Shown here: one piece after another, positions 41,834 through 45,322 of the stretch | How positions within the stretch are numbered: the first letter of the stretch is position 1 | Layout of the letters: each line of letters begins with the position of its first letter | DNA from: Dietzia psychralcaliphila | GTDB lineage: Bacteria > Actinomycetota > Actinomycetes > Mycobacteriales > Mycobacteriaceae | Length of the DNA: 64,000 bases | Direction: 5' to 3' | Assembly (NCBI RefSeq): GCF_003096095.1 | Contig: NZ_CP015453.1 | Coordinates: 2,294,001-2,358,000, forward strand | Translations under genes and position numbers: made by a program | Notes under the pieces: model-generated | Database searches by the model: none | Told to the model about the DNA's origin: nothing | The model's input: the letters and a program-made list of their open reading frames with translations, nothing else

Positions 41834-42910
41834 TTACTCAGCCCGCCGACCGCCGCGCACCCCTGCGGCGAGCGCGCGCACGCCGTCCTCGGTGGTATCC
41901 CAATCGATGCAGGCGTCGGTGACCGACTTTCCGTAGACCAGCTCCGCGGCCTCGACGGACTGGGCACCGGCCTCGATGAAGCTCTCGATCATCACCCCGG
42001 AGATCCCCTGCTCCCCCGCCCCGATCCGCGCGGCGAGCTCGGACACGACCTCGGCCTGACGCTCGTGTGACTTGCCCGAGTTGGCGTGGCTGGCGTCGAC
42101 CATGACCAGACCGGGCAGCCCGACCTTGGCGACGGAGGCGACGGCAGACGCGACCGACCCGGTGTCGTGGTTGGGTCCGCCGGAGCCGCCGCGCAGGATC
42201 ACATGGCAGTCCGTGTTGCCGGCCGTCTCCACCACCGAGGCCCGTCCCTCCGCGTCGGTGCCGAAGAAGACGTGCCGGGACGCCGCGGAGCGACACCCGT
42301 CCACCGCGACCTGCACCTCGCCGTCGGTCCCGTTCTTGAAGCCCACCGGCATGGACAGTCCGGAGACCAACTGGCGGTGCACCTGGCTCTCTGTGGTCCG
42401 CGCCCCGATCGCGCCCCAGGAGACGGCGTCGGCGATGTACTGCGGGCTGGTCGGCTCGAGGAACTCGCAGCCCACGGGCAGACCCAGGTCGAGCACGTCC
42501 AACAGGAGCTTGCGGGCGGTGCGCAGTCCGCGCGGGATGTCGTAGCTGCCGTCCAGCGCGGGGTCGTTGATCAGGCCCTTCCACCCCACAGTGGTGCGCG
42601 GCTTCTCGAAGTAGACACGCATGACGATCAGCAGGTCCTCCGAGACCTCCTCGGCGAGGGTGGCGAGGCGACCTGCGTAGTCGAGCGCGGCCTCGGGGTC
42701 GTGGACCGAGCAGGGCCCCACCACCACGAGCAACCGGTCGTCGCGGCCGGCCAGCACGTCGGCGATCTCGGTGCGACTGCGCTCGACCAGAGCCTCTCGG
42801 GCCTCGCCCAACGGTTGCTCGCCCAAGATCTCGTTGGGGGTCGGTAGCGCGGAGTAGGACAGGACGCGGCGGTCGGCGGTCTGGGTGGGGTTCTCGGCGG
42901 TGATGGTCAC
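41834..42910 (-). CDS. 3-deoxy-7-phosphoheptulonate synthase, class I (AroF/G/H type)
   Basis: A 358-residue class I DAHP synthase, the entry step of aromatic amino acid synthesis (PEP plus erythrose 4-phosphate). LLVVVGPCSVHDPEAALDYA, MRVYFEKPRTTVGWKGLIND, WGAIGARTTESQVHRQL, GFKNGTDG and DASHANSGK carry the metal and substrate residues (Cys, His, Glu, Asp). GTG at 42908-42910 is chosen, with AGGAG upstream. Over 200 bp of leader precedes it, including a short ORF rich in Tyr, Trp and Phe, so attenuation by aromatic amino acids is likely. Class I enzymes are also feedback-inhibited by Phe, Tyr or Trp. Confidence 0.95.
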   Translation of the reverse strand: MTITAENPTQTADRRVLSYSALPTPNEILGEQPLGEAREALVERSRTEIADVLAGRDDRLLVVVGPCSVHDPEAALDYAGRLATLAEEVSEDLLIVMRVYFEKPRTTVGWKGLINDPALDGSYDIPRGLRTARKLLLDVLDLGLPVGCEFLEPTSPQYIADAVSWGAIGARTTESQVHRQLVSGLSMPVGFKNGTDGEVQVAVDGCRSAASRHVFFGTDAEGRASVVETAGNTDCHVILRGGSGGPNHDTGSVASAVASVAKVGLPGLVMVDASHANSGKSHERQAEVVSELAARIGAGEQGISGVMIESFIEAGAQSVEAAELVYGKSVTDACIDWDTTEDGVRALAAGVRGGRRAE

Positions 42911-42944
42911 GGCAGTGCACTCCTGGGTTCTCGGTGGTGGCGGG

Positions 42945-43036
42945 CCGGGTGCCGTGATCCTCGTGGTGCCAGTTCCGTGCACCCGGATCCGCCGCTGGAA
43001 ATGGCGGGAGGCGGCGACCATGGTGGTCACCGCCTC
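42945..43036 (-). promoter_or_regulatory. Candidate attenuator structures in the DAHP synthase leader
   Basis: On the minus-strand transcript, a 13-bp stem (12 Watson-Crick pairs and one G-U) with a 3-base loop forms from 43036-43024 and 43020-43008. Downstream, the segment at 42979-42986 can pair either with 42965-42969 or with 42945-42952, so two structures exclude each other. No T-tract is visible. This layout suits transcriptional or translational attenuation. Confidence 0.5.
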
Positions 43037-43062
43037 TGGGCTCCGGGTGTCGGGACGTCCGG

Positions 43063-43140
43063 CTAGCGGACGCGTGCGCTCGCGGCGCGGGCTCCACCCG
43101 GAGCCCACATAAAGCGCCAATAAGCGCGAGCGATCGACAT
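43063..43140 (-). CDS. Aromatic-rich leader peptide of DAHP synthase
   Basis: A 25-codon ORF (ATG at 43138-43140, TAG at 43063-43065) lies upstream of the DAHP synthase gene on the same strand. It contains the clustered residues AYWRFMW, giving two Trp, one Tyr and one Phe within six residues, just as leader peptides of amino-acid biosynthetic operons hold the regulatory codons. A -10-like TACGGT (43148-43153) lies seven bases before the ATG, so the leader may itself be leaderless. A strong hairpin starts 26 bases after its stop. Function is inferred from composition and position. Confidence 0.65.
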   Translation of the reverse strand: MSIARAYWRFMWAPGGARAASARVR

Positions 43141-43184
43141 GCCGGACACCGTAGCAGAGGCCGCGTCTTTCGGGCCACTTGCGT

Positions 43185-43702: not shown

Positions 43703-43735
43703 GCAATGAACGACGCAGGAGGGTGGCGGGGGGGT

Positions 43736-45322
43736 GTGGTGGTGGATCCGACGATGACGACGACGAGCTCGGCGGCGTTCGGGGCGCTGCGCGCCGTGCC
43801 GGAGGCTCTCGACGCCCTGGGCACCGAGGCGTTGAGCGAGGTGGCGCGGTCGGCCACGCTGGCACAGAACCTGGCCGCGGCCACCCGGCTGCAGGCCGCG
43901 CACTTACTGGTCGAGGCGATGAGGCGGCTCGACAGGGAGGCGCATGGGCCGGACCCCGGTCGGCAGCCTGGCGATTCCGGCCCCGCTGATTCTCGTCCTG
44001 CCGAGTCTCGTCCTGCCTACGCGCGCCTGGACCCGGCCGATCGGGCTCGTGACCACCTGACCGCGGCCATGTCCCTGACCGGGTGGCACGCCGCGCGTCT
44101 GGTCACCGCCGGCGTGCAGATCCACACACGTCTTCCGCTTTTGCGCAAAGCCGTCGAGCGGGGCCTGCTACCCGAACAACTGGCCATCGACACCGCCTGC
44201 CGGCTGGCCGAGATCCCTGACCAGATCATCGCGGCAGTGGAATCGGAGATCGTCGGCGCCCTGGCCCGGGACCTGGACGGGGGCCACCGGCCCAGCCGCA
44301 CAGCCCTGGACACCGCGGTCGACGCAGCGAGAGAACGCCACGATCCCCGGTCCGCCGAGGACGCAGTGGGCGCCGCCGTCGAACAGCGCACCGTCCGGTT
44401 CCGCCCCGGCCGCGACGGCATGACCAACATGTGGGCCACCCTGCCCAGCGGCGACGCCGAGAAGCTGCGCCGCCGCATCGAGGCCGCCGCCCGCGCCGCC
44501 TCCGAGGCAGGTCATCCCCGCACCCGCGACCAACTACGCGCCGACGCCCTGTGCGCGCTCGGGGACCCGAACACCAACGACATCGGCACGGCCCTGCACG
44601 ACGCAGAGAACGCCACCGACCACGCCGACCACGCTGATCACGTTGACTGTTCAGGTCACGCCGACCCCGCCGCCGCCGGCACGGCCAGGCCGCGACCGGG
44701 TGCGTCGTGGGGCACCGAACAACCCATCCGGATCTCGATCATCGACAGCATCGCCCAGGGGCTGCCCAACCGCGTCCAGTTCATCAACGGCGCCTACGCC
44801 AGCTTCGACTGGCTGTGCGAGGAACTGCTCTCCGGCGGCGAGGCCAAGGTGCGGTTCGAACTGATCGACCCGCAGCCGGGCGTGCTGGATAAACCGGACG
44901 CGGTCCTCAAGTACTTCATCACCCCTGCGCTGGCCGAGCGGATCCGTCTCCGTGACGGGACCTGCCGCCACCCCGGATGCACCGTCGATGCCCACGACTG
45001 CGAAATTGACCACATCATCGCCTTCGACCACCTGCGCCCCGAGATGGGCGGACCCACCGCCGAGTGGAACCTGATCTGCCTCTGCCGCAAGCACCACCGC
45101 GAGAAGACCTTCGGCCACTGCGCCTACAAACCCGGACCCCTCGGCGAACTGACCATCATCACCGAGACCGGACACGAACACCGCACCACCCCACACGGGC
45201 CACTGGCCCAGGCACGCGACCGAATCCTCGACCACCGATGGCGACAACACCTCGACCGCCTCATCGCCGACGACGGCCACCTCACCAACCCACCAGGCGC
45301 CGAACGCACCCACCTCGCCTGA
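43736..45322 (+). CDS. DUF222 / HNH endonuclease protein (13E12 family)
   Basis: A 528-residue DUF222 protein with a C-terminal HNH nuclease domain, the family called REP13E12 in M. tuberculosis. The helical DUF222 part includes LTGWHAARLVTAGVQI and LPEQLAIDTACRLAEIP. The HNH part has CRHPGCTVDAHDCEIDHIIA followed by EWNLICLCRKHHREKTFG, with four zinc Cys and catalytic His. A 3 x 15-bp repeat (43973-44017) encodes DSGPA, DSRPA, ESRPA, and a His/Asp-rich linker (ATDHADHADHVD) precedes the second half. AGGAGG at 43717-43722 supports GTG 43736; ATG 43706 lies before it. Such genes are often multicopy and sometimes damage-inducible. Confidence 0.88.
   Translation: MVVDPTMTTTSSAAFGALRAVPEALDALGTEALSEVARSATLAQNLAAATRLQAAHLLVEAMRRLDREAHGPDPGRQPGDSGPADSRPAESRPAYARLDPADRARDHLTAAMSLTGWHAARLVTAGVQIHTRLPLLRKAVERGLLPEQLAIDTACRLAEIPDQIIAAVESEIVGALARDLDGGHRPSRTALDTAVDAARERHDPRSAEDAVGAAVEQRTVRFRPGRDGMTNMWATLPSGDAEKLRRRIEAAARAASEAGHPRTRDQLRADALCALGDPNTNDIGTALHDAENATDHADHADHVDCSGHADPAAAGTARPRPGASWGTEQPIRISIIDSIAQGLPNRVQFINGAYASFDWLCEELLSGGEAKVRFELIDPQPGVLDKPDAVLKYFITPALAERIRLRDGTCRHPGCTVDAHDCEIDHIIAFDHLRPEMGGPTAEWNLICLCRKHHREKTFGHCAYKPGPLGELTIITETGHEHRTTPHGPLAQARDRILDHRWRQHLDRLIADDGHLTNPPGAERTHLA

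Follow-up and report, generated by a model that had tools for sequence, protein, structure and literature searches.

The kind of element described here is already known from the aroR attenuator of Corynebacterium glutamicum aroF. Passages of PMC4046766, repeated in PMC3890552, give aroF a Phe-Tyr-Phe leader, and a passage of PMC3890552 also reports about 33% leaderless mRNAs. In PMC11802643, which gives an account of the aroR study by Neshat et al. 2014, the passage concerned reports that transcription of the aroF operon goes up under Phe limitation and that Tyr supply is without effect; a passage of PMC7356990 speaks of a translational regulatory leader peptide as the product of aroR. For actinobacteria, a 2005 paper (PMC1262725) saw conserved structures upstream of Trp, Cys, Leu/Ilv and ileS and of no other pathway.

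We analysed a window of 64,000 nucleotides (the whole stretch of Dietzia psychralcaliphila DNA under study, in whose positions all coordinates are given) that holds, as in the aroR type, clustered aromatic codons upstream of class I DAHP synthase, here YWRFMW and not FYF. In our reading the locus is an attenuator of the DAHP synthase gene, with a probability of about 0.9; the full explanation, ribosome-mediated attenuation of the aroR kind acting as proposed below, we consider likely at a somewhat lower grade. The leader, its codons, the helices A:B and C:D and the conservation of all of these stand on sequence and comparison, and we infer that A:B is the ‘on’ state.

The leader ORF and its conservation

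The leader ORF comprises 25 codons plus TAG (MSIARAYWRFMWAPGGARAASARVR; 43063..43140, minus strand), and its control codons Tyr7 Trp8 Arg9 Phe10 Met11 Trp12 (UAU UGG CGC UUU AUG UGG) occupy 43105..43122 on the same strand. A -10-like box, TACGGT (43148..43153, minus), lies 7 nt 5′ of the leader ATG, and transcription probably starts at this ATG, which would make the leader mRNA leaderless. A first-pass annotation of the window had described both an ORF of this length with an aromatic run upstream of class I DAHP synthase and a -10 element placed for leaderless translation, and both are present. The class I DAHP synthase gene itself (41834..42910, minus; Pfam DAHP_synth_1, E 2.2e-88, and TIGR00034) has a GTG start at 42910, 152 nt from the leader stop codon, with a Shine-Dalgarno-like AGGAG at 42920..42924 (minus). 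After the leader TAG, the minus strand carries in order segment B, the C:D hairpin, segment E, segment F with F′, AGGAG and GTG. An undecaprenyl diphosphate synthase family gene is the neighbour downstream of DAHP synthase. The genome also holds a class II DAHP synthase (PF01474), and a control search finds PF01474 in C. glutamicum too. Divergent from the leader, a 538-aa gene with a DUF222 match lies on the plus strand (43706-45322); its C-terminal part presumably resembles HNH.

Class I DAHP synthase matches were found in 34/61 relatives, 250/301 family genomes and 172/298 order genomes. We assembled 150 upstream sequences, comprising 30 loci of the 34 relative matches, 80 from relatives and family and 40 from the order, the latter 80 and 40 being selected among the matches listed with no random draw. 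One sequence (L011) was left out for Ns, giving 149. To be scored as a leader, an ORF had to be 8-45 codons long, to hold two or more aromatics in a stretch of eight residues and to be preceded by TAnnnT at a distance of 6-8 nt from its start. By this measure 142 of the 149 upstream regions of the order have a leader (141/148 distinct loci, as L114 is the same locus as L023, counted twice), compared with 1 on the reverse strand and 0, 4, 2, 1 and 3 in five shuffles; with three aromatics required, the counts are 138/149, 0 on the reverse strand and 0, 0, 1, 0 and 0 in the shuffles. The aromatic leader ORF of 25 codons is thus real and above chance, and the check that the annotation had suggested, for an ORF with aromatic codons in related genomes, bears it out. 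The seven sequences that failed are all six f16 loci and one f14 locus. Spacing from box to start is 7 nt in 126 of the 142 leaders, 6 in 13 and 8 in 3, of which only the sharpness of the 7-nt spacing is informative because the 6-8 nt range was built into the search.

In 137/142 leaders, one stretch of eight residues contains all of Phe, Trp and Tyr; the exceptions are four without Trp and one without Tyr. Two Corynebacterium-like leaders (L080 and L081, group g3) read WRFYF, with Trp present, and a third (L082) has QRFYF; Trp seems to have been lost within this genus. In f15 g67, three loci (L121, L122 and L125) have RYQRF or SYQRF without Trp, and their sister loci L123, L124 and L126 have WYQRF. 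A divergent locus assigned to the same genus as the window (L024), whose DAHP synthase is only 69% identical, has the leader MLNARRYWFSGAPGGAAASCTA and a full U-tract; this copy may have been acquired, or the genome may be misplaced.

Codon choice is skewed as well. Tyr is UAU in 140/148 cases and Phe is UUU in 152/201 across the 142 leaders; in 47 ORFs of the window, each 150 codons or longer and with high third-position G+C, TAT makes up 36/267 Tyr codons and TTT 11/404 Phe codons. Although the leader counts come from related sequences and the background from the window only, the contrast is still large. Slow wobble decoding or an RNA constraint may underlie this UAU/UUU preference. The rest of the leader peptide is variable while the aromatic residues and their U-ending codons are retained, and this pattern speaks against a leaderless upstream ORF that merely brings in ribosomes or protects RNA without sensing aromatic amino acids. 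Such an ORF would accommodate the seven sequences in the order, and several named loci elsewhere, that have no leader, but the C. glutamicum relative responds to Phe limitation (a passage of PMC11802643), and we regard this explanation as very improbable.

Leaders extend beyond the order. A scan of named genomes, from which the best 80 loci of a longer list (at least 80) were taken, gave leaders of the same kind in Isoptericola, Puerhibacterium, a Streptomyces, Glycomyces, Catellatospora, Arthrobacter and Avipropionibacterium. Among the same best 80, no leader was found in the loci of Nocardiopsis, Murinocardiopsis, Streptosporangiaceae/-ales, Bifidobacteriaceae and Gryllotalpicola, two-aromatic ORFs in Gardnerella and one Nocardiopsis not being counted as leaders. 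In 37/80 there is an ORF in which ten residues hold four aromatics, all three kinds among them (2 on the reverse strand; 1-6 in five shuffles), a criterion that passes over three-aromatic YWRF leaders. Among the 37 are betaproteobacteria, Bradyrhizobium, Stenotrophomonas, Burkholderia and a Polyangiaceae MAG.

Thirteen loci, mostly with Comamonadaceae-like or Burkholderiales titles (L197, L200, L201, L207, L211, L214, L216, L223, L224, L225, L228, L231 and L234; for example MTSRFAFFAFYFWFSVPGGREARL), combine an aromatic cluster and GGCGG near the leader end with a CCGCC..GGCGG hairpin further downstream, directly behind which stand 5 to 9 T. Judged by eye, these betaproteobacterial leaders look like classical switches. 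They also have TAnnnT 6-8 nt before the ATG, so they are perhaps leaderless, which would be unusual there. Further aromatic leader ORFs, for example MITVATSYFWYFSYDSSLAAGGSRSI, occur in alpha- and gammaproteobacteria-titled records, Burkholderia and the Polyangiaceae MAG (L193, L198, L203, L204 and L217 (Bradyrhizobium); L218, L227; L235; L237; L226; L208). Comparison thus places the conservation of the leader far beyond what the first-pass annotation could know.

The A:B helix and the C:D hairpin

The pairing segments lie on the minus strand. Segment A (GGGCUCCGGGU; 43096..43106) can pair with segment A2 (43089..43095) or with segment B (ACCCGGAGCCC; 43038..43048), and B with A or with segment E. 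The arms of a 13-bp hairpin follow as C (5′; 43024..43036) and D (3′; 43008..43020), and the region with this stem, which had been noted in the first pass, folds better than 200/200 shuffles (z -4.3). A:B is a 10-bp helix that links the leader to downstream RNA and adjoins C:D. In the YWRF layout (for example Dietzia, Williamsia, Mycobacterium and Gordonia), B stops just before C:D; in the YFWF layout (for example Rhodococcus, Nocardia and Amycolatopsis), B runs into the 5′ arm of the hairpin that follows, and this hairpin has no U-run directly after it. The annotation had also proposed segments with mutually exclusive pairing, and alternative pairings do exist, but in the window B ends before the 13-bp stem and does not overlap it.

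Both helices are conserved as pairs. In an alignment of 52 sequences (51 distinct), mostly of YWRF type (of 92 usable references, 53 were prepared and 52 aligned, the one left out being the duplicate L114), the paired cells amount to 97.2% for A:B and 87.6% for C:D, and double changes occur at 4/10 and 6/10 of their pairs, respectively. Taken jointly, at most 3/500 shuffles reach any of five measures. Against slid versions of themselves, the two helices have 92.6% versus at most 50.7% of cells paired and a covariation score of 0.182 versus at most 0.072, with a tie in the number of further pair types. RNAalifold on the same alignment predicted A:B (8 pairs) and not C:D. One B pair is gapped in 11/51 sequences because the alignment splits two B columns. 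The A1:A2 hairpin was rejected as a selected element, and A2 is weakly supported, because no double changes were seen there.

We further compared each leader with its own downstream RNA and with that of other genera. Across 39 genera, native pairs average -32.8 versus -29.2 kcal/mol for swapped ones (z -6.5; 0/20000 permutations as good), with z -2.8 (58/20000) within 15 YWRF-type genera and z -3.7 (3/20000) within the other 24. In some genera, including g44, g9, f15g67, g43 and f14g89, native pairing has no advantage over the average swap. Covariation and the swap test together reveal the compensatory changes that the annotation had asked for, and they do so in the long-range A:B helix. The window has no Rfam match at gathering score, be it to a riboswitch, a T-box or another known RNA family; the only hit below that score is mir-769, at 18.7 bits versus a gathering score of 57, on the other strand.

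Ribosome position, sensing and read-out

In the mechanism we propose, a ribosome would load at once, since transcription probably starts at the leader ATG. Were charged tRNA-Tyr or tRNA-Trp short, this ribosome would wait at Tyr7 or Trp8 with A free, and A would pair with B; once it moved on, A would be covered and B released. We folded the RNA from the ribosome front edge, 15 nt from the A-site, codon by codon, in an equilibrium model without pseudoknots or kinetics. There, ribosome position is predicted to switch A:B against B:E, and only a ribosome at Tyr7 or Trp8 leaves A free, the Trp12 position masking A. In Dietzia foldings the exchange point shifts with the footprint assumed: 12 nt puts it between Arg9 and Phe10, 13 nt at Arg9 and 15 nt between Trp8 and Arg9. 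As the exchange point is near Arg9, Tyr7 and Trp8 should act, Phe10 would be borderline at best and Trp12 should not. We put the chances that Tyr and Trp8 are the effective sensors at about even. The idea that one leader reads all three end products of the pathway is therefore upheld in part: all three residues are conserved, but the model assigns sensing to Tyr7 and Trp8, with Phe10 at the margin. In the Corynebacterium-like leader L082 (QRFYFGGAP), which is not established as that of C. glutamicum, the first Phe stands five codons before the segment-A GCU, the position of Trp8 here, and so fits the Phe response reported for C. glutamicum.

How the A:B exchange would be read out differs among relatives. 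A U-tract follows C:D in most YWRF relatives, across several families, and is absent in g41 and g45. At its site in the window (42997..43007, minus) stands CCGCCAUUUCC, and Dietzia loci have UCCCGCCAUUU or similar in its place; no U-run follows C:D in the window or in Dietzia loci, except in the divergent L024. Comparison across these loci indicates that the U-tract was lost in Dietzia. The first-pass annotation had pictured a classical attenuator whose 13-bp stem is switched by a competing helix, and this part of it fails for the window: the hairpin is present and the U-run absent, no helix was found that excludes C:D, and C:D has a probability of 0.96 at every ribosome position (0.96-1.00 in other YWRF-type loci folded). 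Since C:D forms at every position, the window gives no support to a textbook antiterminator, which was discarded. An extension of A:B into C was likewise rejected: it is conserved only partly and would be situated beneath the stalled ribosome.

The two layouts part ways in the same model. With RNA ending before D and the ribosome at Tyr or Trp, the C arm of YWRF-type loci is only 0.00-0.29 paired. In five YFWF loci, the hairpin 5′ arm is 0.67-0.83 paired upstream while the ribosome occupies the first aromatic codon; for a ribosome at the stop the values are 0.00 in three loci and 0.31 in L101, the latter resting on another hairpin, and L104 has no value at the stop. Judged by C-arm pairing, YFWF thus looks like a classical switch and YWRF does not.

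Most relatives of the same layout would probably be read out by termination at C:D with its U-tract; how A:B could block C:D without overlap is a guess, the helix and the stalled ribosome acting against the hairpin. Dietzia may terminate without a U-tract or may use a translational relay. If Dietzia too used transcription attenuation, C:D would have to act as a terminator although it lacks a good U-tract, unaided or helped by a factor such as NusG or Rho, and A:B would have to interfere with it, either sterically or by extending into C. In favour, Dietzia conserves the hairpin, both C:D and the U-tract are retained in relatives sharing the layout, A:B is partly extendable into C, and in YFWF loci the arm is paired upstream when the ribosome occupies the first aromatic codon; on the other side, C:D is indifferent to ribosome position in the folded YWRF loci, C is free with the ribosome at Tyr or Trp, and the U-run is missing from all Dietzia loci but L024. 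We put this explanation at somewhat less than even odds.

The relay would act on the start codon. Segment E (GGAUCCGGGUGC; 42979..42990, minus) resembles A through UCCGGGUG and can pair with B or F; segment F (42939..42957, minus), with F′ (UCACGGC, 42957-42951), resembles B through CACCCGG. Released B would pair with E, freeing F, and F′ would cover the start codon; ribosome position would thereby select A:B with E:F (start free) or B:E with F′:start (covered). The start region GCCGUGA has its complement in F′ over 7 nt in 18/20 Dietzia loci and over 6 nt in L021, but L006, which has an AUG start, has no such match. The 20 Dietzia loci of the relay foldings exclude L024, which is included in the genus means for complementarity and genus-group pairing; five loci (L029, L055, L063, L078 and L119), for which the automatically assigned gene start was wrong, are outside the genus-group means, the B:E complementarity test and the Shine-Dalgarno exposure set.

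The Dietzia foldings match the relay. With RNA ending after F and no ribosome, or the ribosome at Tyr, E:F exceeds B:E in 20/20 loci; from Phe onward, B:E exceeds E:F in 15-20/20 with footprints of 12 and 13 nt and in 16-20/20 with 15 nt, except at the stop codon (5/20). With the start region included, mean pairs for A:B, B:E, E:F and F:start are 10.6, 0.5, 5.0 and 5.5 with the ribosome at Tyr, 0, 11.7, 0.2 and 8.1 at Phe, and 7.2, 4.1, 7.2 and 3.8 without a ribosome. B:E complementarity against shuffled E has a mean z of -4.2 in the Dietzia group (-3.2 in the window; -0.4 to -3.2 in 14 other groups), and native B:E lies above the shuffled mean in 19/20 Dietzia loci. In the means of 14/14 genus groups, B gives up A:B in favour of downstream partners, but start-region pairing rises clearly in only some (g1, g46 and g51).

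The controls are mixed, and we offer the relay as a hypothesis. Freed B also pairs with shuffled downstream RNA (mean 11.1 native versus 5.6 shuffled), and the knock-on loss of downstream pairs is hardly above that of shuffles (7.1 versus 6.3). The window's own B:E is matched by 8/25 shuffles, which is not significant, and that of L012 by 15/25; F:start energy z is weak (-1.1 for the Dietzia group mean, -0.9 for the window), and F:start pairing occurs with the ribosome at Tyr as well as at Phe. Exposure of the Shine-Dalgarno and start region at equilibrium has no consistent dependence on ribosome position in 18 YWRF-type loci and was dropped as a read-out; in YFWF, 4/5 loci (L028, L094, L104 and L107) lose some exposure past the first aromatic codons. 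The description of the aroR product as a translational regulatory leader peptide (passage in PMC7356990) favours translational control, but taken together we think a start-codon relay in Dietzia unlikely. Slightly less probable still is the broadest version: a three-aromatic leaderless attenuator shared, by descent or transfer, by many actinobacteria and some proteobacteria, with Tyr and Trp as sensors, whose terminator Dietzia would have exchanged for a ribosome-driven A/B/E/F relay on the start codon.

The leader among known attenuators

DAHP synthase is the entry enzyme of the shikimate pathway, so the leader would act at the start of a branched pathway, and one peptide sampling three aromatic tRNAs would, if the reading is right, be a simple logic gate for entry into it. 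The conserved leaders form a natural variant series, with and without a U-tract, with B overlapping or abutting the hairpin and with and without Trp. Such a series would permit transcriptional and translational attenuation to be compared on one gene, and it predicts sensor codons from their distance to segment A.

Our literature search, which covered freely accessible papers, returned no title or abstract start on a three-aromatic leader or on conservation outside Corynebacterium, and the passages seen of PMC8079986, PMC13236596 and PMC4633059 do not name such a leader; because of that scope, these negatives are weak evidence of novelty. In this sense the three-aromatic reading, the UAU/UUU preference, the wide conservation and the loss of the U-tract are new within the searched literature.

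Among described systems, aroR of C. glutamicum aroF shares with this locus a short aromatic leader ORF before class I DAHP synthase, and the Corynebacterium-like loci (g3) share A:B and C:D with the window. In the passages concerned, aroR has Phe-Tyr-Phe without Trp, whereas the leader here has Tyr-Trp-Arg-Phe-Met-Trp; unlike in the aroR kind, the hairpin here lacks a U-tract. The E. coli trp and, in a passage of PMC13236596, M. tuberculosis ilvB1 attenuators resemble it in end-product leader codons and alternative helices, but in the window, unlike in attenuators of the trp/ilv type, no helix that excludes C:D was found and there is no U-run. The LEU element of leuA in Actinobacteria (passage in PMC1262725) likewise has a leader ORF, long-range pairing and an implicated translation start, yet its leucine codons pair with the Shine-Dalgarno box, whereas here it is A, beyond the control codons, that forms the helix with B. 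Cysteine-responsive short ORFs of mycobacteria (Canestrari et al. 2020, as cited in a passage of PMC13236596) are also leaderless leader ORFs; they are described there as translation attenuation, for cysteine and other genes, and the relay put forward for Dietzia is a proposal.
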